From IMG/VR virus record IMGVR_UViG_3300034177_000030, positions 1 to 43,824 of that record: 43,824 nt of DNA; one strand, given 5' to 3'. Under the pieces are notes generated by a model. It did no database searches, had not been told where the DNA came from, and saw only the letters and a program-made list of their open reading frames with translations. The stretch comes from a virus. Positions 8,113 through 37,915 of this stretch are shown here, one piece after another (position 1 is the stretch's first letter; every line of letters begins with the position of its first letter). A program made the position numbers and the translations under genes.

Positions 8113-8660
8113 GACACATCAGCGACGTGATTGCGGAGCACGAGGGGCCGGAGCTCCAGCCGATCAAGACGGAGTACCGCGGGCACCTGTTCCGCTCGCG
8201 GCTCGAAGCGCGCTGGGCGCTCTTCTTCGACCTGATCGGCGTCGCGTGGACCTACGAGGGCGAAGGTTACGAATTGCCGGGCGGGCGCTACCTGCCGGAC
8301 TTCGAGATCAACCTCGCGCGGCGAGGGTTCTGCTTCTTCGAGGTGAAGCCGTACCAGCCCGATCTCGACGAGCTGCGCAAAGCGCACGAGCTGGCCTTCG
8401 CCTCCCGGCGCATGGTATTCATCGGCCAGGGCATGCCGGGCGACGAGTCGGGGATCTACGCCGTCTTCCCAGAGGGCGCCGAGGACGACGGCTACCACGT
8501 GGTGCCGTGCCCGAAGTGCGGCGCGATCGGGATCGAGTTCGCGGCCCGCGCGGCTCGCGTTTGCGGCGATGTGTGCGTGCCGGAGTCGGATGGCTGCCCG
8601 AGCCCCGATGCGTTCGCCGAGCAGGCGCGGCAGGCGCGCACGCGCAGGTGGTGGCCATGA
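8109..8660 (+). CDS. PD-(D/E)XK nuclease with C-terminal Cys cluster
   Basis: The product has 183 residues. FRSRLEARWALFFD (28-41) carries the first Glu. YLPDF (61-65) gives the catalytic Asp (D64), and FFEVKPY gives E78 and K80, the classic PD-(D/E)XK order with a Trp-Tyr-Glu strand between. A second part (from about 130) has CPKC and later CGDVC pairs, a likely zinc ribbon. The protein probably cuts DNA during replication or recombination; substrate is unknown. The ATG overlaps the helicase stop. It is the last gene of the rightward replication block before the minus-strand island at 8700-9045. Confidence 0.85.
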   Translation: MRHISDVIAEHEGPELQPIKTEYRGHLFRSRLEARWALFFDLIGVAWTYEGEGYELPGGRYLPDFEINLARRGFCFFEVKPYQPDLDELRKAHELAFASRRMVFIGQGMPGDESGIYAVFPEGAEDDGYHVVPCPKCGAIGIEFAARAARVCGDVCVPESDGCPSPDAFAEQARQARTRRWWP

Positions 8661-20989: not shown

Positions 20990-21336
20990 TGTCTGCCCCC
21001 CTCACGACGAGCATCATCACGCGCGCGACGACCTACGCCGTCAAGGCGAACGGCGCTGGCGATACGACCGTGATCACGGTCGGCGCCGGGAAGAAATTCG
21101 TCGTCTTCGCGTGCTACGTCGTCGCGGGTGGCGCGGCAACCATCGAGGTGAAGAGCGGCGCGACCGCGATCACCGGCGAGATCGACCTCTCGGCAACCGT
21201 CCCGATGGCATTCGGCATCGGCGGCTCGACGCCCATCTGGATCGGCCGCGGCGACGGCGACGACCTCGTGTTCACGAAGGTTGGCGCGGTCGACTTCGAT
21301 GGCTGGGTGCTGGGTGCCGAGGTGGACTACCTATGA
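20989..21336 (+). CDS. Small structural protein
   Basis: The product has 115 residues. The ATG at 20989 overlaps the adaptor stop (TGATG). It is all-beta with strong Val/Gly alternation (KKFVVFACYVVAGGAATIEV and DLVFTKVGAVDFDGWVLG), like a jelly-roll or Ig-type domain. Between the adaptor and hub-like genes, a connector or head-closure role is plausible. No family was recognised. Confidence 0.55.
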   Translation: MSAPLTTSIITRATTYAVKANGAGDTTVITVGAGKKFVVFACYVVAGGAATIEVKSGATAITGEIDLSATVPMAFGIGGSTPIWIGRGDGDDLVFTKVGAVDFDGWVLGAEVDYL

Positions 21337-22991: not shown

Positions 22992-24413
22992 ATGTCTCTC
23001 GACACTCGCAGCGTGAAGACGGGCGGCGGCACGTCGCTGATCGACGGCCAGAACGCACCCGCGGCCGATGTCGATACCGACATGACGACGCTGTTCAACC
23101 GGCTGAACGGCAACGTCGGGAACGATCAGATCAATGCGTCGGCGGCGATTGCGTATTCGAAGGTGAACCTCGCGGCTTCGATCGTCGCGGGCGACATGGC
23201 GGCGGGCGCGGTCGTGAACGCCGCGGTGAACGCGAGCGCCGACATCGCGCTCACGAAGCTCGCAGACATCTCCGCGACCGACGACGCGCACGACGATACG
23301 ACGACGCCCGGCGACTCTTCGGCGCACACGCTCCCGACGACGCTCAGCGGCGAGCTGCAGCAGATGCGCTATGCGGTCGAGCGCCTTGGGCTCGGCGTCG
23401 CCGCTTCCCGCTACGACGCGACTGGCACGCGAGAGGCTCCGTTCTGGGGCGACCTGCCGGCGCGCGGGATGCAGCGCATCCCTGGCATCAACGGGGTCAC
23501 GGTCTCTGGCCTCCCGAGCGGGTGGACGAACGTAGCGACGGCGACGCTCGCTCAGGAGGCGGCCGATGCCGCCGATGGGCTCGCCGGCAAGGGCCGCGCC
23601 ATCAAGATCACGGCCGCTGGATCTGCCAACGAGGGCATGTCCTACACGCTCTCCGGTCTCAAGGAAAGCACGCGGTACTTCATCGCCGCGTTGATGAAGG
23701 CGACGAGCGGCGACACTGCGCGGCTCGACTGCACCGGCGGCGACGCAACGTCCTCGTTCCGAAACTTCACGGCCGACGTGACGGCGACCACCTGGACGTG
23801 GGCCTATGGCGTGGTGCAGACCGACGCGACCCCGACGAGCATCGTCGTGCGCACGCTTGCCGCCGCGGATACGGACGTGGTGTGGGTCGCCGATGTGCAG
23901 TACGGCGAGTGCGCCGCGCCGCCGCTGGCCCCGCGCGTGGCCGTGATCGAGCACATGGCGGCGGAGACGGCTGGCACGGTGATCGACGGCGCGACGACCG
24001 ACGCCGGCCTAGAGACCAATTACCAGTTCATCGACAACGGATCTACCGACCTCGACATCACGGTCTACGTCCCCGGGGACGGGTACTACATCGACGTTCA
24101 TGGCGTTGCGTGCGCGGAGTCCGACACCAACGCGACTAACAACGCGGATTTCTCCGTGCGCCTCTACATGGGCGTTGGCGCCGGGGCACTTGCCGCCGTG
24201 CGGAATGCCGGCGAGTTCAGGCGCGGCGGAACGGTCAATAACACGATCGAACGCTTCACGATCCCGGTGGACTACATCGTCAAGGCCCCAACGCCCGGCT
24301 CGGCCTATCGCTTCGCGCTGGCCGGCACCAAGTCGGCTACGCCGTCGATGGCGCCGCAGAAGACCGTGGGTAGCGGTCACTCGACACTCACGGTGAAGGT
24401 GATTCCGTACTGA
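22992..24413 (+). CDS. Tail fibre-like protein
   Basis: The product has 473 residues. The N-terminal ~100 residues have the fibre-type repeat pattern (FNRLNGNVGNDQINASAAIA, then AYSKVNLAASIVAGDM and similar units), which usually attaches the fibre to the tail and trimerises. The rest is beta-rich, with distinct sandwich-like halves. It starts directly after the hub stop. The receptor-binding end cannot be assigned. Confidence 0.7.
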   Translation: MSLDTRSVKTGGGTSLIDGQNAPAADVDTDMTTLFNRLNGNVGNDQINASAAIAYSKVNLAASIVAGDMAAGAVVNAAVNASADIALTKLADISATDDAHDDTTTPGDSSAHTLPTTLSGELQQMRYAVERLGLGVAASRYDATGTREAPFWGDLPARGMQRIPGINGVTVSGLPSGWTNVATATLAQEAADAADGLAGKGRAIKITAAGSANEGMSYTLSGLKESTRYFIAALMKATSGDTARLDCTGGDATSSFRNFTADVTATTWTWAYGVVQTDATPTSIVVRTLAAADTDVVWVADVQYGECAAPPLAPRVAVIEHMAAETAGTVIDGATTDAGLETNYQFIDNGSTDLDITVYVPGDGYYIDVHGVACAESDTNATNNADFSVRLYMGVGAGALAAVRNAGEFRRGGTVNNTIERFTIPVDYIVKAPTPGSAYRFALAGTKSATPSMAPQKTVGSGHSTLTVKVIPY

Positions 24414-24982
24414 TGCCCTCGCAATTCTTCATTACTGGCCTTCCGCGCTCGCGCACGGCGTGGCTCGCCAATTGGCTGACCACGGGCGAGACGTTCTGTT
24501 ATCACGACGGCCTCTCGGGTTGCGCGTCGCTCGACGCCTTCGACCGCAAGCTCGCCGCGCATCCGATCTGCGGAGACAGCGACTCGGGGCTCGCGTTCTT
24601 CTGGGAGCCGCTACGCAAGGCGTACCCCGATGCGCAGTGGGCCATCGTGCGTCGCGATCCGCTCTTCGTTGCCGCGAGCCTCGTACGCATGACGCCGTAC
24701 GAGGGGACGGCGAACCTCACGCCGACCGCAGCCGAGGAGTTCGTGGCCGAAGCGAGCGCGCGGCTCGACAAGCTCGCGGCCGAGCCGGGCGTGTTCTCGA
24801 TCTCGGTCGAGCAGCTCGCGACTCGCGAGGGCGCGCGCGCTCTCTGGTGGCACTGCCTCCGCGATCGTTCCCCGTGGAACGCTCCGCGCTGGGAGCTGCT
24901 GCGCGATCTCCGCGTGACGGTCGCTAGCGAGCGCGTGCGCGTGCCGCTCGCGGCCGGCGCCGCACTGCTCGGGAGGGCCTAG
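24413..24982 (+). CDS. Sulfotransferase-like P-loop protein
   Basis: The product has 189 residues. ITGLPRSRTAWLANWL (7-22) is the PAPS 5'-phosphosulfate loop, and IVRRDPLFVAASLVR (78-92) the 3'-phosphate binding motif of sulfotransferases. The latter order and spacing are normal, but the protein is shorter than most family members. It should transfer sulfate from PAPS to an unknown acceptor. Placed between the tail fibre and ejection genes, it could modify phage appendages, host surface glycans or a small metabolite. The ATG overlaps the fibre stop. Domain call is firm; role is open. Confidence 0.8.
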   Translation: MPSQFFITGLPRSRTAWLANWLTTGETFCYHDGLSGCASLDAFDRKLAAHPICGDSDSGLAFFWEPLRKAYPDAQWAIVRRDPLFVAASLVRMTPYEGTANLTPTAAEEFVAEASARLDKLAAEPGVFSISVEQLATREGARALWWHCLRDRSPWNAPRWELLRDLRVTVASERVRVPLAAGAALLGRA

Positions 24983-24984
24983 CG

Positions 24985-26058
24985 ATGGCGTGGATTGCAG
25001 CACTGATCGCCGCAGTGGGCGGGCTTGGCGGCGCCGCGATGGGCGCTTACGGAGGGAGCGATCCGAAGCTCCATGACGCGGTTGGCAAGAAGGATCCTCT
25101 CTACAACGCTGCGCTGATCGACGCGCTCATTGGGATGGGGGCTCCGGTGTCGGCGCAGCAGCTCGCGCTGATGAGCCCGCTCGCGCAATTCGGCCGGGCC
25201 GGGCTCACGCCCGCGCAGCAGACCGAGGTGCGCGACCTGATCGCCCAGGGCACCGCTGCCGGGCTCACTCCCGACGAGATCGCGAAGCAGCTCGAAACGT
25301 TCGGCGCCGGGAAGGGCGGCAAGAGCGCGTTCTTCAAGGGCGGGCAGTTCCGCGGCGCGAAGCAAGGCTACGGCTCGCTCGTCGACCTCGTGAAAGCGGA
25401 GCAGGCGTTCACCACTCAGTACGACCCCGCCGAGATCGCGCGCCTCCAGGGCGTCACCTCCGCAGGCCGGCGCGGCGCGCAGGAGTCGGTCGCGCGCATC
25501 CAGGGCGACTTCGTCGCGCCGAGCGCCGCCGACATTCAGGCGCAGGCTGGCATCTCCGAGACGGCGCTGCGCGGTCAGATCGCGCGCGAGCGGAGCGACG
25601 CCGAGGCTGGGATTTTCGAGCAGATGAACGCGATGGGGATCAACCCCGCCGCGCGACTCGGGCGGCTCGACGAGTGGCAGGCGCAGCAGAATCTCGAAGC
25701 GCAGCCGAACGCTCTCGCGCGCGCGCTGCAGCTGCTCTCCGGTGAGCAGTCGCTCCAGACGAGCGCGCTCGGCGCGCTCCAGGGCTCGCTCAGCGTCCAG
25801 AGCGGGAACGCGATGGGGATGCTCGGGCTCCAGCAGTCTCTCGGCGCGCAGGCGGCGAATCAGGCGCTCGCGCTCGCGGGCATGAGCAACCAGAACGCGC
25901 AGCTGGCGGGAGAAGGCATCGCGAACGCGGGCAACGTCGGATCGCAGGCGTACCTGGTCAGTCAGCTGTACGGGCAGGATCCGGCCCCTGGCGACCGCAG
26001 CTTCCGCAGCGGCGATCCAGCGTTCGATGCGTGGCTCAGAAACCTGATGAGCTCGTGA
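24985..26058 (+). CDS. Internal virion/ejection protein with N-terminal TM
   Basis: The product has 357 residues. A hydrophobic Gly/Ala segment (WIAALIAAVGGLGGAAMGAY, 3-22) comes first. The rest is Gln/Ala/Gly-rich and helical (QAQAGISETALRGQIARERS; MLGLQQSLGAQAANQALALA), the composition of ejection proteins in short-tailed phages. It heads a series of three such genes. Spacing to the next gene is one base. Function is inferred from composition and order. Confidence 0.6.
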   Translation: MAWIAALIAAVGGLGGAAMGAYGGSDPKLHDAVGKKDPLYNAALIDALIGMGAPVSAQQLALMSPLAQFGRAGLTPAQQTEVRDLIAQGTAAGLTPDEIAKQLETFGAGKGGKSAFFKGGQFRGAKQGYGSLVDLVKAEQAFTTQYDPAEIARLQGVTSAGRRGAQESVARIQGDFVAPSAADIQAQAGISETALRGQIARERSDAEAGIFEQMNAMGINPAARLGRLDEWQAQQNLEAQPNALARALQLLSGEQSLQTSALGALQGSLSVQSGNAMGMLGLQQSLGAQAANQALALAGMSNQNAQLAGEGIANAGNVGSQAYLVSQLYGQDPAPGDRSFRSGDPAFDAWLRNLMSS

Positions 26059-26059
26059 G

Positions 26060-27511
26060 ATGCCGCTCCCCCCGCCGCCCAACTTTCTCGCCATGGCGCT
26101 CGCCGTCGAAGAGCAGAAGCGCCGCCGCGAGCGGGACTCGCTGCAGCAGATGCTGATGCAGCAGCAGCAGCAGGACCGCGTCGAGCAGCTGGGCATCGAG
26201 GCGATTCGCGCGGGCGGGAAGCTCAAGGACGTCGAGGCGCGCTACGGGACCGAGGCGAGCGAGCGCGGGCGCGCGTCGTGGCGAATCTTCTCGGACGCGC
26301 AGAAGAGGAAGGAAGCGGAGGCGGAGAGCGCCGCGGCAGCAGGCCCGTTGATCCCGAACGTGCAGCGCCTCGCCGTCGAGGCGCCGAACACGGAAGCCTA
26401 TGGGCGCGGAGTCTCGTCTCTCGCGCAGATGCTCGGCCCGCGCGCGGCACCGATCCTCGAAGCGATGTCGGCGCAGGCGCAGATGGCGCCGACGCTCGGC
26501 GCGCTCGATCAGATGCGCGCGCAGGAAGCGTTTGCGACCGAGATGGACCAGAAGGGACGCCTCGAAGCGCAAAAGCAGGCGATCATCGCTCGCAAGGAAG
26601 TCGGGGTTTACGGACAGAAGAAGAGCGTCGACCGCGCCAACCAGGAGCTGGACACCGCGATCGCGCAGCAGCGGACGGCCACCGTCACGCCGTGGGTCGC
26701 TGGCGCGATTCGCGCCGAGGAGGCATCGGGTGGCAGTAGCGCCGCCGGGCTTGCGTCGATTGCGGACGCCGCGGCGTCCATCGCCGATCCGGTAGAGCGC
26801 GGCGTTCACATCGCGCACGCCACGCGCATGTGGAATATCGGCCGCGAGGGCCGCGAGATCGCACAGCGGTTCGATGACACTGGCACGCGCATCCCCAAGG
26901 ATCTCGTCAACCGCCTCAAGAACGGGACCGCGACGCAGGATCACTACACCGGGCTCGTGCTCAACGTGAAGCCGGGCACGCTGCAGGAGCGTTCAGTCGC
27001 GTTCGTGCAGGGCGCGCTCGAATCGTCGGCCCGTCTCCGTGTCGCACTCGACCGATTCAGCACAAAGCGCAGCGCGACCGGCACGGCCTACTTCACGGGC
27101 AACGTTGAGAAGATCGCGAAGTCACCCTTTGGCGCCCAAGATCCAGACTTCGCGAACATCGTCCAGGCCCGAAACTCTGTGCTCGAGCTGCTGCGTCGTC
27201 CGAACGCCGGTGCGAATCTCACGAAGAACGAGGACGAGTACTACAAGAGCCTGATCCCAGGCCTCGAAAAGCTCTCGTTCGCGAACGGCAAGCTGACGCC
27301 GCAGAGCGAGGCGCTGCTGCGCGGTATGATCTCGCACGCCGAGACGTACTACCGCGCGAACCTCTCGGCTGCGTTCCCTGAAAGGGTGAAGAGCGCCCGC
27401 CTGCGTGCCCGCTTCGATGAAGCGCGCGCCACGGCAGCCGAGGAGTACGGACCTGTCTCGGCAGCAGCGACCGTCCCCGGCAGCGTCCTCATCCCGGCCA
27501 GGGGGCAGTGA
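26060..27511 (+). CDS. Internal virion/ejection protein
   Basis: The product has 483 residues. A Pro-rich start (PLPPPPNF) is followed by a Gln run (MLMQQQQQDRVEQ) and long charged helices (RDSLQQML, RQAIIARKEVGVYGQKKS). No membrane segment is clear. Helical, Gln-rich proteins in this position are typically packaged in the head and ejected with DNA. Its stop overlaps the next start. Confidence 0.55.
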   Translation: MPLPPPPNFLAMALAVEEQKRRRERDSLQQMLMQQQQQDRVEQLGIEAIRAGGKLKDVEARYGTEASERGRASWRIFSDAQKRKEAEAESAAAAGPLIPNVQRLAVEAPNTEAYGRGVSSLAQMLGPRAAPILEAMSAQAQMAPTLGALDQMRAQEAFATEMDQKGRLEAQKQAIIARKEVGVYGQKKSVDRANQELDTAIAQQRTATVTPWVAGAIRAEEASGGSSAAGLASIADAAASIADPVERGVHIAHATRMWNIGREGREIAQRFDDTGTRIPKDLVNRLKNGTATQDHYTGLVLNVKPGTLQERSVAFVQGALESSARLRVALDRFSTKRSATGTAYFTGNVEKIAKSPFGAQDPDFANIVQARNSVLELLRRPNAGANLTKNEDEYYKSLIPGLEKLSFANGKLTPQSEALLRGMISHAETYYRANLSAAFPERVKSARLRARFDEARATAAEEYGPVSAAATVPGSVLIPARGQ

Positions 27512-29286
27512 TGGCCATCGAATGGGAGCTCTTCGACCACGCGACAGGGAAGCGCCTCGGGACGATCTACGCCGCGGATCAGGATGACCTCACGCGCATG
27601 GTGCAGTCGCGCTACGGCGACCGAGCGGTCCAGGCGAACCCCGTGACGAGCAAGCGCGGACAGTTCGGCCTCGGCGCCGTGCAGGACACAATGAGCGCGC
27701 TCGGTGGCATCATGGACCTCGGCCAGATGGCGCATACGGGCGGCGTCCCGCCGCGGCATCCCGTTGGGCCTGCGATGACGTCAGCGGGCGAGAAGCTCGC
27801 AGCGATGCTCGGGATCAACCCGGTACCGCCGCAGACCACGGGACAAGGCTACGCGCGCGCTGGTGGGCGCGCGGCAGGGCAGCTCCCGATTGTCGCGGCC
27901 ACGGGTGGCATGGCGACGCCGGGTCTCGCGGCAGCGAACACTGCTGGCGCTTTCGCGGGCGAGTTTGCTGGCGAGGCGGCGAAGAACGTCGGGCTCGGCG
28001 GGTTCGGGCAGGCCGCAGCATCGACCGCAGCGGATCTGCTCGCGACCAAGGGCACGGGCAGCCTGCTCCGTAGGGCTGGCGCGAGCGGCCTCGGCCCTCC
28101 GCCGGGCGCGTTCGTGCCGAGCCGAATGCAGCAGAAGGTGTTCACGAAGCTCGCGCCGCTCGACATCTTGGACGCGAAGTCGAAGGAGCTGCTCGGCGTC
28201 ATCACGGAGCGCTACGGGATTCTCGACGATGCGAAGAACGCCGCGTGGCAGGCCGTTCCCAAAACTGGCGTTGCTTCGGTGGACGGCGCCGGACTCGTCG
28301 CAGCGGCCCGGAAGATCATCAAGGATGAGATCGGCGATTCTGCCGATCTTGCCGCGGTTGCCCCGCCGGGCCTCGTCAAGTCGCTCGCTCGCCGCGTCGG
28401 GAAGGACGGCGCGCCGCTCCCTGTGACCTTCGAGAACCTGCGAATGATCGACCGGCACATCACGAAGCTCGTTCGCGAGGCCGGAGCGCAGGGCGCGACA
28501 GAGGCGCAGCGCCAGCAGGCCGCGATGGCGCGCAAGCTCGCCGATGCGGTCGACGAGACGATGGGCGAGATGTCGCGCACCGCGGACGGAGCAGCGGTCT
28601 CTGCGCTCGATCGGGCGCGCGCCGCGTCGAAGACGCTCTCGACGCAGTTCGACCGGCAGGACGCCATCTATCAGAAAGCCATCGACCCGCGCTCGCTGCT
28701 CGAAGACCCGCACCGCTCGGTCGAGGCCATCGTGAAATCGCGCCACGGCAACACGCTCTCGAAGACGCTCACTGAGATCGCCGGCACGACGCCGGCCGGG
28801 AAGCGTGCGTTGCGCGGAGCGTTCGTAGATATCTCCGCTGGCGAGGCCGAGAAGTCCTTCAGCGCGTCGCGGACGCTCAAGTTTTTGGACGAGCACGAAG
28901 CGGTCGGCCGGAACATGATGGGCGACGCCTCCTACGACCACTACCGCGGCGTGATCTCCGATCTCACCGATGTGAGCAACAAGTACCGGAAGACCTTCGC
29001 GCACAGACTCTCGCTCTACGCCGGCTACGGCGTTGCAGGCGCGCTCGCGACCGGAAGCCGTACGGCGGGCGCAGTCGGCGGTGCCGCAGTGGGTTCGGTG
29101 CTCGAGTCGCTCGGCCAGCGACTCAACGCAGACGAGATGACGCGCGTTGCGCGACGCGCGCTCATAGATCGCGACCTGTTCGAGCTGATGAAGAGCGCAC
29201 CGACGAAGGCAAACGTCGCGCGCGCCGACTTGTGGGCGCAGGCCCTCATCGTGCGTGGAGCCATGCGCACAGGAGAATCCCAATGA
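27511..29286 (+). CDS. Large internal virion/ejection protein
   Basis: The product has 591 residues from ATG 27511; a GTG at 27508 would add one residue. The N-terminal region includes a compact mixed domain (AIEWELFDHATGKRLGTIYA), then a long Gly/Ala-rich segment (APQTTGQGYARAGGRAAG-like, about 110-150) that can pass through a membrane. Near the C-terminus (YGVAGALATGSRTAGAVGGA) is a second such stretch. Long charged helices fill the centre. The set of three adjacent proteins (24985-29286) recalls ejectosomes of podoviruses. No lytic transglycosylase motif was recognised. Confidence 0.6.
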   Translation: MAIEWELFDHATGKRLGTIYAADQDDLTRMVQSRYGDRAVQANPVTSKRGQFGLGAVQDTMSALGGIMDLGQMAHTGGVPPRHPVGPAMTSAGEKLAAMLGINPVPPQTTGQGYARAGGRAAGQLPIVAATGGMATPGLAAANTAGAFAGEFAGEAAKNVGLGGFGQAAASTAADLLATKGTGSLLRRAGASGLGPPPGAFVPSRMQQKVFTKLAPLDILDAKSKELLGVITERYGILDDAKNAAWQAVPKTGVASVDGAGLVAAARKIIKDEIGDSADLAAVAPPGLVKSLARRVGKDGAPLPVTFENLRMIDRHITKLVREAGAQGATEAQRQQAAMARKLADAVDETMGEMSRTADGAAVSALDRARAASKTLSTQFDRQDAIYQKAIDPRSLLEDPHRSVEAIVKSRHGNTLSKTLTEIAGTTPAGKRALRGAFVDISAGEAEKSFSASRTLKFLDEHEAVGRNMMGDASYDHYRGVISDLTDVSNKYRKTFAHRLSLYAGYGVAGALATGSRTAGAVGGAAVGSVLESLGQRLNADEMTRVARRALIDRDLFELMKSAPTKANVARADLWAQALIVRGAMRTGESQ

Positions 29287-30941
29287 CTCGACTCCTTGCC
29301 TTCACCCTGCTTCTGCTCGCGCTCTTGCTCTCGGCGCCGGCGCTCGCTGCGGTGCGCTGGGCACCGGAAGCGCTCAACGCCGGCGGCTGCTCGACGTTCT
29401 TCTTCGCCGGCAGCGACGCCTCGGCCGCACAGCCGTCCATCAATGTCCCGGCCGGTGAGCTGGCCTTCAGCTCGATCGCCACGGACGGCACCGCGATGAG
29501 CGTCGAGCTCTATATCGTGGCGGCCGAGTCCCCGGACCCGAGTGCCGCTACGGGCGCGGTGCTCGCGTTCACGGCTACGGGAAACTCGTCGAGCCCCGCC
29601 TACTTCCCGGTGAGCAGCGGCTACCTGCTCGACCCCGAGATCACCACCGACGGAGACGGCGGCAGCGTGACGGTGTGCTCGGCGCCCTTCCAGATGACGC
29701 GCCGCGAGATCAACGGCCGACCGGGTACCCGTTGGCTCGCGGGTACTGGTCAGGATTCTCTCGCGGCGATCACGGGGCGGGATTACGTGGACCCCGTGCT
29801 CGGAACGACTTCGAGCGCCGGCTGGGAAACGTGCTTCATAGACTTTAACGACCCGCAGGACTACACGAGTTCCTATAACGGAGGATGGTCCGGTGCGTCG
29901 CAAAATCTGCCGTTCACTTACGGGCAGCCAGCGGTGCTCGGTCTCATCGGTACGGCCACCTTCGATCCGGCAAATCTCGCCGATGGGGCCGGCGAGACCA
30001 CGACGGTCACAGTAACAGGCGCAGCGACTGGCGACCTCGCGCAGTCGTCGTTCTCACGGACGACCTCTGGAATCACGATCACGGCGTGGGTGAGCGCCGC
30101 GAACACCGTGAGCGTGCGCTTTCAGAACGAATCAGGCGGCGCGCTCGACATCTTGAGCGGCACGCTCACAGCAACGGTGCGCGACGATGATCAGGCCGGC
30201 CTGATGAACAATCCGCCGGTCCGGTGGTCAGTTCTCGCCATCGGAAGCCCGGCAGGCATTTTCCTCAATACCAACCGAACGACAGGCACCTCGAACGAGC
30301 TGGACGCGCGCGCGCTCATCGGCACGACTACGAACGCCACCGGGGCGCTTTATTACACTCCGCTCTGCGGCTTCGGGCAGTCCAGCGGAACCGTCAAGCG
30401 CGAAGTGCGCGCGATATGGCGCATTCGGCGCGACTCGGGAACGGCCACGAACTCGTGTTTTTGGGTGGGATTCATCAACACGATTGTCGCAAACGACGTG
30501 CCGCTCACGGTGACCTGCACGAACGAGTCAAGCGCGACCTCTAACTGGTTTGGAGTTTGGACGGAGGCAACCGCAGACATCCACGTTGGAATGAACGAGG
30601 CGGCTGCGTTCACGCTCGACTACGACAGCGGCGTCGATACCCCATCCTCGTTCACCAGCTTCATCATCATCGAGATGGTCGGCGTGTACGACTCCGCTGG
30701 CGGCAACACGTGGATCAACGGCTACTTCGACTTCTACGTGAACGGCACGCTGCTGCGGCAATCGGGGCGCTCTCACTCCATCGAGCCGTCGGACATGACG
30801 ACGCCTTGGGATATCGCCGCTGACCCCATGCACTTCGCGATGGCGGCTGTCCGGTTAAACACCACCGGCGGCACCCCGTCCTTTCAGGTGGATTACGTCG
30901 GCAGCTCTGTGACCCGGCAGCTTCAGAGCACGACTCCCTGA
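29283..30941 (+). CDS. Secreted-type beta-sandwich protein sharing an N-domain with the 31285 gene
   Basis: The product has 552 residues and begins with a canonical Sec signal peptide (MTRLLAFTLLLLALLLSAPALAA, written here in two parts: MTRLLAFTLLLLALLL and SAPALAA), cleaved after the second Ala-x-Ala. The mature N-terminus has a ~120-residue domain ending in GDGGS and VC, which recurs in the 31285 product. The C-terminal half is Thr/Asn-rich beta sandwich with FDFYVNGTLL, like a carbohydrate-binding fold. A signal peptide on a phage virion-cluster protein is unusual. It could be an exported moron or an appendage with a periplasmic step. The ATG overlaps the previous stop. Confidence 0.6.
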   Translation: MTRLLAFTLLLLALLLSAPALAAVRWAPEALNAGGCSTFFFAGSDASAAQPSINVPAGELAFSSIATDGTAMSVELYIVAAESPDPSAATGAVLAFTATGNSSSPAYFPVSSGYLLDPEITTDGDGGSVTVCSAPFQMTRREINGRPGTRWLAGTGQDSLAAITGRDYVDPVLGTTSSAGWETCFIDFNDPQDYTSSYNGGWSGASQNLPFTYGQPAVLGLIGTATFDPANLADGAGETTTVTVTGAATGDLAQSSFSRTTSGITITAWVSAANTVSVRFQNESGGALDILSGTLTATVRDDDQAGLMNNPPVRWSVLAIGSPAGIFLNTNRTTGTSNELDARALIGTTTNATGALYYTPLCGFGQSSGTVKREVRAIWRIRRDSGTATNSCFWVGFINTIVANDVPLTVTCTNESSATSNWFGVWTEATADIHVGMNEAAAFTLDYDSGVDTPSSFTSFIIIEMVGVYDSAGGNTWINGYFDFYVNGTLLRQSGRSHSIEPSDMTTPWDIAADPMHFAMAAVRLNTTGGTPSFQVDYVGSSVTRQLQSTTP

Positions 30942-31288
30942 TGCGCGCAGGGCGGCACCTGCGAATGGGCTCCGTCGCACGCGGCGGGGCAGCCCTTACG
31001 GGCCTGGTGCTGCTCTGCGCGCAGGCCCTCGCGGGCGGCCCAACGATCCTCGAAACGGTGCTCGTCCCGCCGAGCGCTTACGGCGACTGCGGCACGCGCG
31101 TCTCGATCAGCATGTGGGGGCGCACGGTGGCTCAGGGCCTGATGCCCGGGGACTGCGTGCGCGTCGAGGGCGCGAAGCGCGCGAAGCTCTGCTGCCAGAC
31201 GCAGCCGGTCGTATGCAGCGGCCCGGCGGTGCCCGCTGCGGTGCCGCCGCTCGCCTGGCAGAGGTGCTCGCGCGAGACCTCGCCGTGA
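30941..31288 (+). CDS. Small signal-peptide protein with six or more Cys
   Basis: The product has 115 residues. After a short basic start comes a hydrophobic helix ending ALAGG (about 15-33), typical of a Sec signal. A second ATG at 30965 (MGSVARGG) is a possible start with a better N-region. The mature part has several Cys (DCGTRV, GDCVRVEG, LCCQ) suited to disulfides outside the cytoplasm. The gene overlaps both neighbours and sits between two secreted appendage-like genes, so it may work with them. No family was recognised. Confidence 0.55.
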   Translation: MRAGRHLRMGSVARGGAALTGLVLLCAQALAGGPTILETVLVPPSAYGDCGTRVSISMWGRTVAQGLMPGDCVRVEGAKRAKLCCQTQPVVCSGPAVPAAVPPLAWQRCSRETSP

Positions 31289-33609
31289 TCAGTCACCGGG
31301 CGCGGTTCGCCACCTCCCGCGAGGTACAGGCGTGGGCGCGCGCTGAGTATTCGCACGCGGATTGGGCAATCCGCCGCGCGCTGCGCTCCACGACGGGCCG
31401 CACGCTCGCGCGCTGCATGCAGATCGTGCGGAGCGCGGCGCGCGTGGGAGTAGTGCTGCTCTGCGCGCTAGCGCCGGCAAGAGCGGAGGGAGTCTGGTCG
31501 CCAGCTTCGACGGAATGCAAGCAGTTCACTTGGACCGCCGACGACGCCGGCGACGCGCAGCCTGCCATTACGCTCGGGCCCGGCGAGATTATGCTGACTG
31601 CCGAGATCGCCGGCACGACGCTCGTGAGCCTCTACCGGATGCCGAGCGGCGTCTCGAGCGCGGACCCATCGGTTACGGGAGAGCTTGTCGCCAGCTTCGC
31701 GACGACGAATCGGTCTCCGATTTTCGCCGCAGTGAACGGCGGTCAAGTGATCGACCTGGAGGTTTCAGCCGCGGGCGATGGCGGAAGCCTCATGGTCTGC
31801 GCTGCTGGCTATGGAGGGGCAGGCTCGATCAGCGCCGAGGTTGGCAGCGGCCATGCGGTCGCAGCGGCACCTGCTTCGTCGCCTATTACTGTCGCGATCA
31901 CCGCATCGCGTACGTCTGGCCTGCCTCCGCTGCTCGTCCACTTCGAGACCTACTCGGCGACGGACGCCGGCAGCTTCGACTCGTTCCACGACATGTATTG
32001 CCAGTGGGACTTCGATGACGTCGGCAGCGGCAATCACCCGGCTGGCGACGAGTCTTCGCGCAACGCCGAACTCGACTCGACGATCGCGGCGCACGTCTTC
32101 GAGGCGGCGGGCACTTACGACGTGGTCGCGAGCTGCACAGATCCAGACGGCAACCTCGACACCGACACCACAACGATTACGGTGAGCGCCTGGGCTGGCG
32201 CGGATACGACGTGCATCGCGACCGTGCTCCCGGTGGCAGGCGCTGATGGCTGCCCGGCAGGGTCCAGTGCGTACGCCTCCCCGGCGAACGACTTCGATGC
32301 CGACGTGGCTACGAACATCGGGGCCGGAAAGCGACTGCTCTTCCGCCGCGGCGAGTCCTACGCGCACAACGCCGTGACGAACATTGCGCTAGCAGGCCCT
32401 GGCATGGTCGGCGGCTACGGCAGCGGCTCTCAGGTCACGCTCACCGGCAGCGGCAACGTGTTCCGCTGCAACAGCGCGGGCACCGCTGACGACTGGCGGT
32501 TCGTCGATTTCACGGCCGGGGACATCGGCGCCGGCAACGCCTTCGTCACGGCATCGAACGGTGCGACGCACCGATGCGCGCACTGGCTGGTGAAGAACGT
32601 CACCGGCACGGGTGGCTCACTCTGGGCGCGGGCGTGGAACCCTGTCGGTGCAGGCAATAACTACCCAAACGACGTGCCGGGGATCGTGGACACGACCTGG
32701 GATGGCGGCGGCGCGTCGGCCGGCAATAACACGATCTACATGCCGAATACCCGCATGGTGATCATGGGATCGACGCTCAGCCAGCCCGACCCGGACATCG
32801 AGCATACGATCCGCGTGTCGATCACGCGCGGCGGGTACATCGGGCACAACAGCGTGACGTGCCCGAACGACACCTCCCGGCACTGCCTCAAGCTCCACGC
32901 GGGCCTTCACGGCTCGAACCCGCCGAACGCTCCCGAGGCCAGCTCGTTCGTCTCCATCGTTCACAACACGTTCACGGCGCTATCGACCAGCGCGGCAATC
33001 ATGGTGGACATCGGCCCGGAGGACACCGACGAGAATTGGGTCGATCACGTCGCGGTCTCCGGAAACCTCTTCGTAGCGAGCAGCTCGACGCAGAAGATGA
33101 TCCGCCTAGCTATCACCGGCTACGGCTGGGTGCGCAACAGCTTCTTCAACATGACCGGCATGACCAGCGGGATGACCGGTATAAAGTGGGAGCAGCGGAG
33201 CGGCAACCCGACAGACATCCCGGACACGCTCGCCTGCACGCACAACACGGGATTCGACGACGACGCCGGGACCACGCCCACGCTCTGCTGGTTCTTCGCC
33301 TCTCAGACCGCCGCGCCGCGCTACGGCGATAACAACCTCTTCGTGGGCGACGGCACGCTGACCGCCGACACCACGGAGAGCGGCGAGGACAGCGCGCAGA
33401 CGGGCAGCACGACGATCGACTCGAACGACTGCGCGAGCGACCCGTTCGCTACGTGCCCGCCGGTCACATTCGCCGATTGGCGCATCGCGAACGGCTCGGC
33501 CGCGGACGATCAAGGCTTTGCGGATGCGGTCCACGCGAGCGGCGACTGGGAGGGCGATGCCCACTGCGCGACGCCGGACTCGGGCGCCGACGAGGAGGCC
33601 GGATGCTGA
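31285..33609 (+). CDS. Large secreted PKD and beta-helix protein, tailspike-like
   Basis: The product has 774 residues from GTG 31285. An internal ATG at 31417 would start exactly at a signal peptide (MQIVRSAARVGVVLLCALAP, then ARAEG), giving 730 residues; both are possible. After this comes the ~115-residue domain shared with the 29283 product (ends GDGGS, VC). A PKD domain follows (PLLVHFETYSATDAGSFDSF then YCQWDFDD, closing with GTYDVVASCTD). The last ~450 residues have Gly/Asn-rich strands with repeating turns (NSVTC, HNTFTAL, SGNLFVASS, NNLFVG), a right-handed beta-helix pattern as in polysaccharide lyase-type tailspikes. Binding or depolymerising of surface glycan is likely, but no catalytic residues are assigned. 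Confidence 0.65.
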   Translation: MISHRARFATSREVQAWARAEYSHADWAIRRALRSTTGRTLARCMQIVRSAARVGVVLLCALAPARAEGVWSPASTECKQFTWTADDAGDAQPAITLGPGEIMLTAEIAGTTLVSLYRMPSGVSSADPSVTGELVASFATTNRSPIFAAVNGGQVIDLEVSAAGDGGSLMVCAAGYGGAGSISAEVGSGHAVAAAPASSPITVAITASRTSGLPPLLVHFETYSATDAGSFDSFHDMYCQWDFDDVGSGNHPAGDESSRNAELDSTIAAHVFEAAGTYDVVASCTDPDGNLDTDTTTITVSAWAGADTTCIATVLPVAGADGCPAGSSAYASPANDFDADVATNIGAGKRLLFRRGESYAHNAVTNIALAGPGMVGGYGSGSQVTLTGSGNVFRCNSAGTADDWRFVDFTAGDIGAGNAFVTASNGATHRCAHWLVKNVTGTGGSLWARAWNPVGAGNNYPNDVPGIVDTTWDGGGASAGNNTIYMPNTRMVIMGSTLSQPDPDIEHTIRVSITRGGYIGHNSVTCPNDTSRHCLKLHAGLHGSNPPNAPEASSFVSIVHNTFTALSTSAAIMVDIGPEDTDENWVDHVAVSGNLFVASSSTQKMIRLAITGYGWVRNSFFNMTGMTSGMTGIKWEQRSGNPTDIPDTLACTHNTGFDDDAGTTPTLCWFFASQTAAPRYGDNNLFVGDGTLTADTTESGEDSAQTGSTTIDSNDCASDPFATCPPVTFADWRIANGSAADDQGFADAVHASGDWEGDAHCATPDSGADEEAGC

Positions 33610-33932
33610 AGCCGCTGCCGATGTCAGAGGCCGAGTCCGGTGCCTCGTGGGTGCGCGACCACTGGGAATGGATCGTCGGCGGACTGGCGACGCTGGGGGC
33701 AGGCTTCCGGTTTTCGCGTCGCCGCGACCGCGGCAGCGACGAGATCGTGCAGGCAATCGACAAGCTTCGCGACACGCTGAGCGCCGAGAGTCGCGAGACG
33801 CGAAAGGCCTTGCACCTGCGCTTCGACGCGGCGGCCGAGCGCCTGGACGCGCTGAGCCGCGCGGTCGAGGACATGCGCCGGGAAGACGCGGTGCGCGAGG
33901 GGCGATTTATTGAGCGGATCGCACAGCGATGA
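33603..33932 (+). CDS. Putative holin or spanin-like membrane protein
   Basis: The product has 109 residues. ATG 33603 overlaps the previous stop by seven bases. One hydrophobic segment (WEWIVGGLATLGAGFRF, about 22-38) is followed by Arg/Lys and a long charged coiled-coil-like helix (IDKLRDTLSAESRETRKAL, then RLDALSRAVEDMRR). This topology fits a small holin or a spanin-like protein of a lysis cassette. The endolysin gene follows with an ATGA overlap. Which lysis role it has is not resolved. Confidence 0.55.
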   Translation: MLKPLPMSEAESGASWVRDHWEWIVGGLATLGAGFRFSRRRDRGSDEIVQAIDKLRDTLSAESRETRKALHLRFDAAAERLDALSRAVEDMRREDAVREGRFIERIAQR

Positions 33933-34465
33933 GCTTCGTGGACGCCATGCGCGTGACGCGCCGCGAGGAGCGCGGGCTCGCGAACGATCCCGACGATCCC
34001 GGCGGCCGCACGTTCGACGGGGTCGCCGAGCACGCGAACCCCGAGGCGTGGCGCGATGGCGTCTGCACCGAAGAAGAGTTATTGGGCGCGTACAAGAGCC
34101 GATGGCAGGCTATCCGCGGCGACTCGCTTCCGCCGGCGACGGCGCTGGCGCTGTTCGACTGGTATTTCCAGTCCGGCGCCCACGCGGTGCGCGCGCTCCA
34201 GCGCCTCGTCGGCGCCGCGGCCGATGGCGTAGTCGGGGTCGAGACGATCGCGAACGTCGGTGCGAAGGTGCTGCTGGACGCTGAGGATCGCGCGCTCGCG
34301 ATGGCGCTCGTCGAGGCGCGCGCGGCGTTTCTCGGCGCGTGGGTGTGCGCGCGGCCGGTCAAGCCCGCGGCGGGCGTGGGCTGGGAGCCTGCGCGCATCC
34401 GGTTCCTGGTGGGTTTCATGCGACGACTCGCGCGCATTTCGCACGCGATCGCAACGGAGGGCTGA
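33929..34465 (+). CDS. Endolysin, GH108-type muramidase
   Basis: The product has 178 residues. The N-terminal motif REERGLANDPDDPGGRT (12-28) matches the GH108 signature (Glu near EGG, then DPxDPGGxT), with Glu13 or Glu14 as the likely catalytic acid; the usual EGG reads ERG here. The C-terminal half has helices of the peptidoglycan-binding type (ALQRLVGAAADGVVGVETIA, like a PG-binding 3 domain). It should cleave the glycan chain once the holin allows exit or the export route acts. No signal peptide is visible. Position in the lysis cassette supports the call. Confidence 0.85.
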   Translation: MSFVDAMRVTRREERGLANDPDDPGGRTFDGVAEHANPEAWRDGVCTEEELLGAYKSRWQAIRGDSLPPATALALFDWYFQSGAHAVRALQRLVGAAADGVVGVETIANVGAKVLLDAEDRALAMALVEARAAFLGAWVCARPVKPAAGVGWEPARIRFLVGFMRRLARISHAIATEG

Positions 34466-34469
34466 GGCC

Positions 34470-34973
34470 ATGGACTTCAAGGCAAAGATGGCGACGGGGG
34501 CGATCAGCCTCGGCGCCGGCAACCAGATCATCAACGCGCTGGCGGATCTCGTCGACGCCTGGACCAACAAGAACAGCCCGGTGTTCGAGATGTGGACCGT
34601 GGACCAGTGGCAAGTGGTGCTGGCCATCTTCATCGGGGCGGCGCTCGGCGGGCCCTTCCTCGTCTTCTCGGAGTTCCTGCGCCAGAGCGTCGTCAAGTTC
34701 GGCACCTGGGCCGGCTACGACTTCTCGAAGGCGCTAGGGAACGGAGCTGCGCTGCTGCTGTGCCTCGCGCTCTCGGGCTGCGCGTCACCCTTCGGCCAGA
34801 TCGGCGAGGTGGTGAACTGCAAGGGCGGCGGCACGTTCGTCCGCACCTCGGATACCGAGTTCACCATGAGCTGCTCCGGCGACATGAAGGCGAGCGGCCA
34901 CATCTCGTCCGAGGGCGGGCAGACGGTGCGCGTCGTGGTCGAGGGCGCAGCGCGCGCGGCGCCGCCGCAATGA
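34470..34973 (+). CDS. Membrane protein with internal lipobox
   Basis: The product has 167 residues from ATG 34470, four bases after the endolysin stop. A first TM helix lies at about 47-66 (WQVVLAIFIGAALGGPFLVF). A second hydrophobic segment (ALLLCLALSGCASPFG) contains the lipobox LSGC with Cys104, followed by a polar beta-rich tail with further Cys and Gly. Such a pair recalls spanins, where an inner-membrane part and a lipoprotein part are joined or separate. The order here (TM first, lipobox inside) differs from known fused spanins. Possible cleavage at Cys104 would release a lipoprotein. Confidence 0.55.
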   Translation: MDFKAKMATGAISLGAGNQIINALADLVDAWTNKNSPVFEMWTVDQWQVVLAIFIGAALGGPFLVFSEFLRQSVVKFGTWAGYDFSKALGNGAALLLCLALSGCASPFGQIGEVVNCKGGGTFVRTSDTEFTMSCSGDMKASGHISSEGGQTVRVVVEGAARAAPPQ

Positions 34974-35089
34974 GCCCGCCCTGGCCGACGCTCGCGGACG
35001 TGGCGCGCGCGTTCGCCTGGGTCGCGCTCGCCGGGACCTTCGCGCTCGGCGCGTGCGGCGGGCTCTGCGTGAGGATCGTCGGCCGGTGA
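34970..35089 (+). CDS. Tiny lipobox-bearing membrane peptide
   Basis: The product has 39 residues, with its ATG overlapping the previous stop. One hydrophobic helix (AFAWVALAGTFALGACGG, about 14-31) ends with LGAC, which satisfies a lipobox, and the short tail is GLCVRIVGR. A basic N-region before it is absent. Its size and place in the lysis cassette fit an o-spanin-like or regulatory peptide, but the mature part is very short. Confidence 0.5.
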   Translation: MSPPWPTLADVARAFAWVALAGTFALGACGGLCVRIVGR

Positions 35090-35535
35090 AGATCACGTCC
35101 ATCACGCGGGGCGGCGTGATCGGCGTCGACGCCTACACGCGAGATGGTGTATTCCAGTCGCTGCATCCGGTCGACGTCGCCTTCGATGGCGGCGGATTCA
35201 TGCGCATCCCTGCGGGCTTCTGGTTCAACGGCGCCTCGATCCCGCCCCGCGCGCGCTCCATCATCCAGTCGCTGACGATCGCCGGGTATATCGGGTACGT
35301 CGTCCACGACTACCCCTACGCCATCGGCGCCACCTGGATCACGCCGAGCGGCGCCCGCATCGGCATCTCGCGACGGCGCGCGGACTGGATCGCGCTCGCG
35401 CTCTCGACCTGGCTCGGGCTCGCAGTTGATGATCAGCTCCAGATTTACGCGGCCCTGCGCGCCCTTGGCGGCGCGAGCTACCGGCGGCTGCCCGTCACGC
35501 GGACGCGCGAGCAACTGCTCGCAGCGATGGCGTGA
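35086..35535 (+). CDS. DUF1353-like protein
   Basis: The product has 149 residues from GTG 35086. RIPAGFWFNGASIPPRA (around 39-55) is the conserved core of the DUF1353 family (Pro-x-Gly-Phe...Gly-Ala-Ser-Ile-Pro), seen in many phage lysis or tail-end regions; function is not established. The Trp/Tyr-rich central strand (YIGYVVHDYPYAIGATW) also fits. It is the last rightward gene before the candidate attP. No signal peptide is visible. Confidence 0.75.
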   Translation: MKITSITRGGVIGVDAYTRDGVFQSLHPVDVAFDGGGFMRIPAGFWFNGASIPPRARSIIQSLTIAGYIGYVVHDYPYAIGATWITPSGARIGISRRRADWIALALSTWLGLAVDDQLQIYAALRALGGASYRRLPVTRTREQLLAAMA

Positions 35536-35713
35536 GCGTGGCCGATGAACTGGCGGAGCCACCTCGGCGCGGGGTGAGGGACGCGCGAGGGACAAGCCAG
35601 CTTTGGATGCGAGGCCGCGAATCTGCTCAGATTTTAGGCGCTAGCCGCGGATTCGCCAGAGGTAACAAGCCTCGGGGACCGTGCACGCCGGTTTCACAAC
35701 CGCCCGAGATCGC
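35536..35713. other. Candidate attP region
   Basis: The 178-bp gap lies between the end of the late operon and the end of the integrase gene. Two copies of a short direct repeat, GCCGCGAATC (35614) and GCCGCGGATTC (35644), start 30 bp apart. AATCTG-CT-CAGATT (35620-35633) is a perfect dyad. Such elements fit core or arm sites of a tyrosine integrase. No tRNA 3' end was recognised here, so the core cannot be fixed. Confidence 0.45.
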
Positions 35714-36949
35714 TCACGATTTCTCGCCGTGCTTGCTGGCGCTCATGGCCTGGGACGAGCCCGCGCCAAGCGGGCCGCGCACCATCGGGATCAGGCGCGC
35801 CGCCGTGTAGCGCCCGTAGCGCTCGGTCGTGCGCGCGTCGGCGTGCCCGAGCAGCTCGCGCACGTCCTCGATCCCGGACTCGCGGCGCATCCGCGTCGCC
35901 GTCGAGTGCCGCGTGCTCTCGCGCACCGGGGCGACCGGCACGCCCGCGCGCTCGCAGGCGAGCTTCCAGTGTCGGTTCACCTGCCACGCGTCCCACGGCG
36001 CGCCGCCCCTCAGGAACAGCGCGCCGCCGGCCGAGCGCTCGCCGTGCGCCTGCACCCACGCCCAGAGGCGGTCGGTCGCCGGCAGGCGGCGCACGCGGCC
36101 AGTCTTCGTGCCGCGCACATCGTCCGTGCGATGCTGACCCTTGACGGCGCGCCGGATCACCACCCACGGCACGCCATCGGCGAGCTCGAAGTCTGCGTAG
36201 CTGAGCGCACGCGCCTCATTGGGCCGTAGCGCGAGATCGACGAGCGCGAGGTATAGGCCGCGGTCCCGCTCGGGGATCGCAGCAAGGACGGCCTCCTGCG
36301 CAGCCTGGGCCATGATGCGCGGCTCGTGCTCGGCGACCCGCAGCTGCGGGAAGCGCGGGATGCGCTCGATCTCCTCGCGGTCGTAGAGCCAGCGCATGAA
36401 GCCGTGGAAGTAGCCGAGCACGCCGCGCACCGTGACGGGCGATAGGCGGGCCTCCGCGAGCATCCACGTCTGCCAGTCGGCGACATGTGAAGCCTTCGCG
36501 CCACCCACCGGGAGATCGCGCCAGCACTCCCAGTAGCGGCGCACCTGGCCCGAGAGCGCGGCGACGCTCGCGCGCGTCATCTCGTGCGCGTCCGCGCGCC
36601 GCCGCTGCTCCGCGAGCCACGCGTCGATGCGGGCGCCGAGCGTCGAGTAGCCGGCCGGCAGCAGGCGTCCGACCGCGATCTCGGGATCCATGCCGTCTTC
36701 GATGCGCGCGCGGATGCGCTCGAGCAGCCGCTCGGCGTCGGCGCGCGACGTGAACGCCTGCTCGCCGAGCGCGTCGCGGTACTGGTAGATGCGGCCGAAG
36801 GGCCGCGCGTCGATGAACCAGCGCACCGCGCCGCTCGCGCTCCTCCGCTCTCGCACGCGTCCGAACTTGCCCACGGTGCGGAAGGTGCACCGGAAGACGA
36901 GGCGCTTGCGAGGCGCGAAGGTCTGGCGAATGGCGGACGCCGCGCTCAC
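35714..36949 (-). CDS. Tyrosine recombinase (integrase)
   Basis: The product has 411 residues from GTG 36949. An N-terminal arm/core-binding part (about 1-205, with the SAM-like helices around YWECWRDLP to FMRWLYDR) precedes the catalytic domain: LRPNEARAL gives Arg242, TKTGRVRRLP Lys282, RESTRHST Arg347/His348, LGHAD His369 and ERYGRY the nucleophile Tyr378 (or Tyr381). The usual His three residues before Arg347 is Glu here. It should integrate the phage at attB and, with help, excise it. The gene is the last of the leftward operon and next to the candidate attP. The GTG overlaps the stop of the preceding gene. Confidence 0.9.
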   Translation of the reverse strand: MSAASAIRQTFAPRKRLVFRCTFRTVGKFGRVRERRSASGAVRWFIDARPFGRIYQYRDALGEQAFTSRADAERLLERIRARIEDGMDPEIAVGRLLPAGYSTLGARIDAWLAEQRRRADAHEMTRASVAALSGQVRRYWECWRDLPVGGAKASHVADWQTWMLAEARLSPVTVRGVLGYFHGFMRWLYDREEIERIPRFPQLRVAEHEPRIMAQAAQEAVLAAIPERDRGLYLALVDLALRPNEARALSYADFELADGVPWVVIRRAVKGQHRTDDVRGTKTGRVRRLPATDRLWAWVQAHGERSAGGALFLRGGAPWDAWQVNRHWKLACERAGVPVAPVRESTRHSTATRMRRESGIEDVRELLGHADARTTERYGRYTAARLIPMVRGPLGAGSSQAMSASKHGEKS

Positions 36950-37263
36950 CCGCCGCCCTTGCCTTCCAGCGCGTCGGCGAGGCGGTTCGCCAGTGCGATT
37001 ACATCAATGGATTCACACAAGAACGCCCGTTGCTCTTCCGTAAAACGATGGGATGGTTCGTCGAACACCAACGGGATCGGCACAAGCAGCCGTTCCTTTG
37101 GCAGCGACCTGGCCTCCGCCACCAGCTTCGCGAAGTCGTGCGAGCAGGCGGCGCGCACATTCGCGGCGAAGTCTTTTATCGCCGCGATGGCTGATGGATT
37201 GGTCGCGTGCCGCAGCATTCTTTCGCCGGTGGCTGCCGCGCGCTCGCAGAATGTGCAGGTCAT
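36946..37263 (-). CDS. Hypothetical protein of the leftward operon
   Basis: The product has 105 residues from ATG 37263, coupled to the previous stop. A CTFC pair stands at 3-6, then long helices (AIAAIKDFAANVRAACSHDF) and a C-terminal LADALEGK block. The end DNA (36962-36981) is identical over 20 bp to the end of the next gene upstream (37270-37289), and the HDFA-LVAEAR motif is shared with it, so the two are paralogues. Function is unknown. Its own end is GKGGG before the integrase GTG. Confidence 0.6.
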   Translation of the reverse strand: MTCTFCERAAATGERMLRHATNPSAIAAIKDFAANVRAACSHDFAKLVAEARSLPKERLLVPIPLVFDEPSHRFTEEQRAFLCESIDVIALANRLADALEGKGGG

Positions 37264-37427
37264 GGCTTCCCTTCCAGCGCGTCGGCGAGCGCTACCAACA
37301 GATTCGGCGTCCCGTTCACTCCCTCGATCGCGAGTTCCTCGGACTGCTTGCGCGCCTCTGCCACCAGCGCCGCGAAGTCGTGCGTGCAGGCGAGGCAGGA
37401 CGGGCATAGACAGTTCGGGCAACTCAT
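37260..37427 (-). CDS. Small Cys-rich protein, paralogue of the following gene
   Basis: The product has 55 residues from ATG 37427. It has a CPNCLCPSCLAC cluster in the first 14 residues, likely a zinc or metal site. The remainder (HDFAALVAEARKQSEELA and LADALEGKP) is shared in pattern with the 36946-37263 product. The stop region carries the ribosome-site cassette GGAAGGGAAGCCATGA. It may be a truncated or minimal version of the family. Confidence 0.6.
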   Translation of the reverse strand: MSCPNCLCPSCLACTHDFAALVAEARKQSEELAIEGVNGTPNLLVALADALEGKP

Positions 37428-37915
37428 AGTCGTCTCCGGTGTGGGAGACCGCTGACGTGATTCCATGTGCGGCCGTTCCGTATGTCGCTTATTACGCCGC
37501 GACACACCACGAATTCGGCAGCGACGACGCGAGCAATTTCTGTGCGTCCGAGAATCTCTCGCACGCGACACTCATCCAGCGTCGCCGAGTGCTGGTCCCG
37601 CCCGCGAGCCTGACGCGACTTCGATGTCATGTCTTTGGCGTTCGCCAGAACATCTCCGAGAAACAGATGGTCGGGGTTGATGCAAGGTGGGTTGTCGCAC
37701 TTGTGGAGAACGAACAGGCCGGGCGGGATCTGTCCGTTGCGTACGATCCATGAGACACGGTGCGCATTTGTCTTGTAGCCGCGCAGCATGCAGTGCCCGT
37801 AGCCCTTGCGGTCTCTTGAGCCAGTCCATTCCCAGCAACCGTCGTCGCGCTTGCTGCACTGCATCATCAGGCGTTCCAATGGAGTGAACTTTTTGGGGTC
37901 GAAATGGCAGGCCAT
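37424..37915 (-). CDS. HNH homing-type endonuclease
   Basis: The product has 163 residues from ATG 37915 with GGAGA upstream. The HNH_3-type core is GCWEWTGSRDRKGYGHCM, then NAHRVSW and FVLHKCDNPPCINPDHLFLG, in which His, Asn and His line the metal site and Cys pair brace it. The C-terminal part (RVREILGRTEIARVVAAEF then VISDIRNGRTW) is a helix-turn-helix/NUMOD-like DNA-binding module. Such free-standing homing enzymes copy themselves into unoccupied sites. It is inserted neatly between small operon genes with overlaps intact, as such genes often are. Confidence 0.85.
   Translation of the reverse strand: MACHFDPKKFTPLERLMMQCSKRDDGCWEWTGSRDRKGYGHCMLRGYKTNAHRVSWIVRNGQIPPGLFVLHKCDNPPCINPDHLFLGDVLANAKDMTSKSRQARGRDQHSATLDECRVREILGRTEIARVVAAEFVVCRGVISDIRNGRTWNHVSGLPHRRRL

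Follow-up and report, generated by a model that had tools for sequence, protein, structure and literature searches.

The window analysed here is a single IMG/VR virus record (IMGVR_UViG_3300034177_000030) of 43,824 bases, with phage genes over its whole length. On its plus strand lies a block of three consecutive, overlapping genes, starting at 29283, 30941 and 31285 (or 31417), and each of the three products (proteins 1, 2 and 3) bears a predicted classical type-I export signal. Proteins 1 and 3 share the domain that follows the signal and then differ in their tips. The block comprises the following features:

29283..30941, plus strand: protein 1, 552 residues, with signal, shared N-domain, tail-spike/fibre domain and beta-rich C-terminal part
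29283..29348, plus strand: predicted export signal of protein 1, cleavage predicted between APALA and AVRW (rule-based detector)
29349..29684, plus strand: shared N-domain, copy 1, with Cys36 and Cys132 near its ends
29928..30182, plus strand: tail-spike/fibre domain (end of phrog_23388), residues 216-300, E 5e-13
30183..30938, plus strand: beta-rich C-terminal part of protein 1
30941..31288, plus strand: protein 2, 115 residues, with signal and six cysteines in the mature part
31285..33609, plus strand: protein 3, 774 residues (from GTG 31285) or 730 residues (from ATG 31417), with signal, N-domain, putative PKD domain and beta-helix
31417..31485, plus strand: predicted export signal of protein 3, cleavage predicted between APARA and EGVW (rule-based detector)
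31486..31806, plus strand: shared N-domain, copy 2, with Cys34 and Cys128 near its ends
31894..32175, plus strand: putative PKD domain (Pfam 23.4 bits, cut-off 23.5)
32260..33312, plus strand: predicted right-handed beta-helix (polysaccharide-lyase/tailspike type fold; Z 12-15, model pLDDT 40-60)

The predicted signals read MTRLLAFTLLLLALLLSAPALA ahead of AVRW in protein 1, ...GLVLLCAQALA ahead of GG in protein 2 and MQIVRSAARVGVVLLCALAPARA ahead of EGVW in protein 3, and AxA-type cleavage sites are present in all three. They were called with our own rule-based detector, which requires a charged n-region, and not with SignalP. At the threshold used, this detector recovered four of six known E. 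coli signals (OmpA scored 5.26; Bla was lowest, at 3.8). In a 49-kb E. coli control it flagged thiB and also the membrane proteins thiP and setA, and it therefore does not distinguish a cleaved signal from an N-terminal helix. In the window, 4 of the 169 open reading frames (ORFs) of at least 100 residues were flagged, three of them being these consecutive genes. Across 58 phage loci, found by scanning IMG/VR for the tail domain of protein 1, the detector flagged 12 of 1,327 ORFs, and six of these belong to the loci L032, L068 and L069 considered below. With a base rate near 1%, three adjacent flagged genes are therefore not attributable to chance. The start of protein 3 is uncertain: it may be ATG 31417 or GTG 31285, the latter placing a 44-residue extension ahead of the signal. 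The 44 codons in question (31285-31417, MISHRARFATSREVQAW...) are in frame; with GTG 31285 lying across the stop of protein 2, the signal may have a long n-region. Thus, the run of three signal-bearing genes proposed in the first-pass annotation agrees with the coordinates, the overlapping codons and the detector calls.

That annotation had also proposed that the products of 29283 and 31285 share a homologous N-domain of about 115 residues, and this is borne out. Proteins 1 and 3 align over about 115 residues directly after the signal, with 36% identity (tblastn E 1e-13), and the mature N-domains give an alignment score of 154 against 35 +/- 6 for 3,000 shuffles (z = 18.9), which excludes at the sequence level that the two N-domains are unlike. 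The N-domain is modelled, with modest confidence, as a beta domain. Nothing convincing related to it was found in phages, plasmids, PHROGs, Pfam, PDB sequences or 61 fetched records. Fold matches such as dengue E domain I (Z 8.3) look like generic beta-sandwich similarity and were not used. The mature parts of proteins 1, 2 and 3 contain 6, 6 and 16 cysteines, all even numbers, which fits, indirectly, folding in an oxidising compartment; protein 2 had been singled out beforehand as signal-bearing and rich in cysteine, and it is so. The products of the three ejection-type genes that precede the block (24985, 26060 and 27508) have no cysteine.

Beyond the N-domain, the two larger proteins point towards phage spikes. 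The tail-spike/fibre domain of protein 1, which the first-pass annotation missed, is common to spikes of coliphage, Acinetobacter and Sulfitobacter phages, and also forms the C-terminal end of the Sulfitobacter pCB2047 beta-helix-like protein and of the coliphage HSE2 tailspike. Spikes and fibres with this domain mostly adjoin lysis genes. In nearly all 58 loci the domain is terminal, with 0-21 residues after it, versus 253 residues in protein 1; no relatives of this additional C-terminal part were found when they were searched for, and its earlier description as a beta sandwich could not be confirmed (model pLDDT, the predicted local distance difference test score, about 30). A protein of about 125 residues (MSTPDSLRPIPHPSARLV...) in six loci (L016, L019-L022 and L025, at 5869-6246) consists mostly of the tail domain, which thus also exists as a small separate phage gene. 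For protein 3 a PKD domain and a beta-helix had been proposed. The beta-helix is upheld by fold comparison, its best solved matches being the adhesin PfbA (Z 14.9), PL6 lyases (14.0) and the Sf6 (12.7) and HK620 (12.6) tailspikes, and the PKD domain falls just below the Pfam cut-off. Because the model is of low confidence, the beta-helix is to be read as an assignment of fold, not of activity. Foldseek comparison of the low-confidence models with BFVD gave no usable match, and a PKD match on a Ruegeria plasmid was set aside as a bacterial gene within an exopolysaccharide locus. Overall, the modular design suggested earlier, with signals, a common N-domain and differing tips, is what we find.

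Signals of this kind recur on spike- and fibre-type proteins elsewhere. Among the 58 tail-domain loci, the domain-bearing protein is itself signal-bearing in L032 and in L068/L069, and in each of these lineages a nearby gene is signal-bearing too. L032, an epsilon15-like podophage, encodes a spike of 886 residues in which a predicted 27-residue signal stands exactly ahead of the virion-anchor domain: PHROG tail-protein profiles align their own position 2-3 to residue 29-30 of the L032 protein. Epsilon15 gp20 starts MTVSTEVDHNDYTGNG, with the anchor from residue 2, and the L032 spike reads ...GAWG followed by AVSSEVSRTDYVGNG. Cleavage would thus yield a normal spike N-terminus. The stretch from residue 22 to the anchor contains no start codon, and from terminase to lysis genes L032 contains head, hub and internal-virion families but no other recognisable spike. 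Its second signal-bearing protein, of 360 residues, has Octadecabacter and Synechococcus phage relatives without a signal; as a candidate relative of the shared N-domain, it received no support from hhalign. In L069, a Bacteroidota-type phage, the baseplate/collar genes are followed by two adjacent genes with signals.

The third case is ctLwi270 (L085, MW202554.1), a circular podovirus record with major capsid protein, portal and hub families in common with the window. Six of its fibre/spike-type genes have predicted signals, which its annotation does not mention:

846-residue protein with signal
26465-27058: unannotated 197-residue protein with signal
263-residue protein with signal and Laminin_G_3 (Pfam)
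532-residue GH28/pectate-lyase-type spike, neighbouring the 197-residue protein, whose annotated start omits the signal (25638-25677)
164-residue protein with signal and tail domain
341-residue collar-type fibre with signal, MIVLVLLFLLLSISSADA ahead of G

The collar fibre signal was judged by eye, because the detector demands a charged n-region, and flagging the other five took the lower threshold of 3.8. A fibre-type protein of the window phage that has no signal (22992..24413, plus strand) is a homologue of the collar fibre (blastp E 1e-8; alignment score 110 versus 27 +/- 5 when shuffled). Inspection by eye and a few profile searches recognised no signal-less fibre/spike-type gene in ctLwi270. 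A signal has therefore been added to a virion-type protein in three homologous pairs: the L032 spike and epsilon15 gp20, the L032 360-residue protein and its relatives, and the ctLwi270 collar fibre and the 22992 product. Virion proteins do normally lack Sec signals, as was remarked at the outset, but at least three other phage lineages have them on virion-type spikes or fibres; this is thus a recurring class (L032, L068/L069 and ctLwi270) rather than a one-off system.

Two further records deserve mention. The 39-kb Limnohabitans phage DC33 (L080, PQ492659.1) has an epsilon15-type tail spike anchor, yet its taxonomy line reads Inoviridae, which looks like a misclassification. In a Sulfitobacter-phage-like record (L056), the product of 7877-8545 is serine-protease-like and bears an export signal (MKTLIAAALAVLLAWPSLA ahead of APW).

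The window itself represents a temperate podovirus-like phage, with early genes at either end and the following landmarks:

12511: terminase
14098: portal
17088: major capsid protein
within 20916-22991: hub/appendage protein (gene 21333; PHROG profile match)
24985..29286, plus strand: three ejection-type late genes (24985, 26060 and 27508) immediately 5' of the block, their function assigned by position only
33929: endolysin (GH108 endolysin domain by Pfam)
35714, minus strand: integrase

The ejection-type genes gave no profile matches in PHROGs or Pfam, and a search of the window for tRNA genes found none. No near relatives were found in the collections searched (P0001, P0003, portal, major capsid protein, large terminase subunit (TerL) and N-domain against viral contigs; P0001 and TerL against genome contigs); these scans returned just a 3.7-kb TerL fragment (L004, 54%) and a remote TerL match (L005). 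Placed between the ejection-type genes and the endolysin, the block sits in the late structural/lysis region. ATG 29283 overlaps the TGA of the 27508 gene and is preceded by AGGAGA, a good match to a Shine-Dalgarno sequence; ATG 30941 overlaps the stop of protein 1 (TGATG); and GTG 31285 overlaps the TGA of protein 2. A scan of 24000-37500 for the sigma-70 consensus only found 0 promoter-like sites against 0.9 expected, and terminator-like sites there are rarer than chance. From the overlapping codons, the AGGAGA and the lack of promoter-like sites, the block appears to be part of a late transcription unit, and its third-position GC content (GC3) is near that of neighbouring genes. Separating the fibre gene from the ejection-type genes, 24413-24982 encodes a small sulfotransferase-like protein (Pfam Sulfotransfer_3 E 9e-5, under the cut-off; phrog_10855 hydrolase E 3e-14). 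In the lysis region, the product of ORF 34470-34973 has both a holin-like membrane stretch and a lipobox-like LCLALSGCAS, which looks as though an Rz1-like lipoprotein began within the ORF.

Taken together, we conclude that the block encodes receptor-binding or depolymerase-type proteins that, judging from their signals, would be exported by Sec. The two possibilities offered in the first-pass annotation, exported enzymes or adhesins and an appendage that passes through the periplasm, are in our judgement the right ones to weigh. We favour the second, and give about an even chance to spikes being loaded onto virions via the periplasm. Proteins 1-3 would be made late as Sec precursors, exported and cut by signal peptidase. 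Proteins 1 and 3 would fold in the oxidising periplasm, where a disulphide across the N-domain is likely; the common N-domain may serve as an adaptor, and protein 2 as a small partner. Once the holin opens the inner membrane, finished heads could pass into the periplasm and acquire the spikes stored there, by way of the adaptor, shortly before the outer membrane yields. Loading is favoured because L032 keeps an exactly bounded virion anchor and because the ctLwi270 fibre set is all signal-bearing. The clustering of signals in three consecutive late genes, the tail domain of protein 1, the tailspike-like fold predicted for protein 3 and the even cysteine numbers also count in its favour. Several points weigh against it. 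The N-domain resembles no known virion anchor in PHROGs, Pfam, PDB sequences or fold comparison. The window phage also has the signal-less fibre 22992, and so need not depend on exported spikes. Cysteine enrichment is not general, since the L069 fibre has a single cysteine and epsilon15 gp20 has 15 without a signal, and disulphides were therefore dropped as a general reason for export. Finally, we know of no tailed phage for which attachment during the short lysis interval has been proven. More broadly, and with less than even confidence, we propose that some tailed phages finish their particles in the periplasm, where Sec-made spikes and fibres would be stored and then attached to holin-released heads before the outer membrane opens; the signals would be an add-on, gained or lost ahead of ordinary anchors, and the whole recognisable adsorption apparatus of ctLwi270 would be made in this way.

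The strongest competitor, which we consider a real though minority possibility, is that these proteins derive from tail spikes but are never on the particle, and are exported late to act on surface polysaccharide by degradation or coating, which would release progeny from debris or prevent re-adsorption. Exported spike-like proteins do exist in cells, namely the Bdellovibrio MAT fibres (PMC10769870) and Pantoea WceF (PMC7949094), and the signal-bearing gp40 of Xanthomonas phage PBR31 has been read as a lysis aid (PMC10975493). Furthermore, a surface adhesin and lyases rank among the solved structures closest to the beta-helix, and the 22992 product gives the window phage another, signal-less fibre. 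However, the L032 spike retains its virion anchor behind the signal in a structural module with no other spike, and since every recognised fibre/spike-type gene of ctLwi270 is signal-bearing, free secretion would leave that virion without any. Much less probable is that the signals are uncleaved N-terminal helices, either membrane or tail anchors or a stretch skipped by a downstream start. The detector does flag thiP and setA, and a GTG at codon 24 of protein 1 could be a start, but this GTG is without the Shine-Dalgarno sequence that 29283 possesses, AxA-type sites are found in all three proteins, and L032 offers no internal start ahead of its anchor. Least probable of all is an adhesin or enzyme block expressed from the prophage to the benefit of the host: the phage encodes an integrase, and PKD domains with beta-helices are common in secreted bacterial proteins, but the start and stop codons overlap those of upstream late genes, promoter- and terminator-like sites and GC3 do not set the block apart, and protein 1 contains a phage tail domain.

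In the textbook view, tailed phages assemble wholly in the cytoplasm. The export-tagged, spike-like proteins described here suggest that in some phages such components leave the cytoplasm either ahead of their attachment to the particle or in place of it. Routing of spikes through Sec would give assembly a periplasmic stage and make the timing of lysis a part of it, and the spikes might then draw on periplasmic folding factors and disulphides. With free secretion, phages would instead release capsule-type enzymes or adhesins as a late function in its own right, and the annotation of such genes as tail spikes would be wrong. On either reading, the signal is recognisable in sequence and open to screening and direct testing, although annotated starts that skip it hide it, as happens with the GH28-like gene of MW202554.

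Our searches of an open-access library, which covers few subscription journals, found no account of signal peptides on the spikes or fibres of tailed phages, and the novelty is accordingly provisional. The nearest description is PBR31 gp40, a phage late-region protein that likewise has a signal peptide and resembles tail-associated hydrolases; it is an SGNH esterase encoded beside lysis genes, and no spike or fibre architecture has been described for it (PMC10975493). Pantoea WceF is an exported protein of tailspike fold acting on polysaccharide, but is encoded by a bacterial gene and carries a Tat signal (PMC7949094). With the podophage tailspikes (epsilon15 gp20, Sf6, HK620 and P22) the block shares its late-gene position, a beta-helix type fold, the arrangement of N-domain and tip, and the tail-spike/fibre domain of protein 1. 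However, the known podophage tailspikes have no signal peptide, and epsilon15 gp20 opens directly with its anchor, whereas the N-domain of the window proteins is not a recognised anchor. Like the window, ctLwi270 has a cluster of signal-bearing jelly-roll, beta-helix and small proteins, although it has six signal-bearing genes rather than three, lacks the shared N-domain, and has its signal on the collar fibre whose window homologue is signal-less. Finally, the Bdellovibrio MAT fibres combine a signal peptide, a conserved beta-rich domain of about 130 residues and diverse tips; they are bacterial proteins used in predation, and the window proteins match them, in architecture only, in having a signal, a common beta-rich domain and variable tips (PMC10769870).

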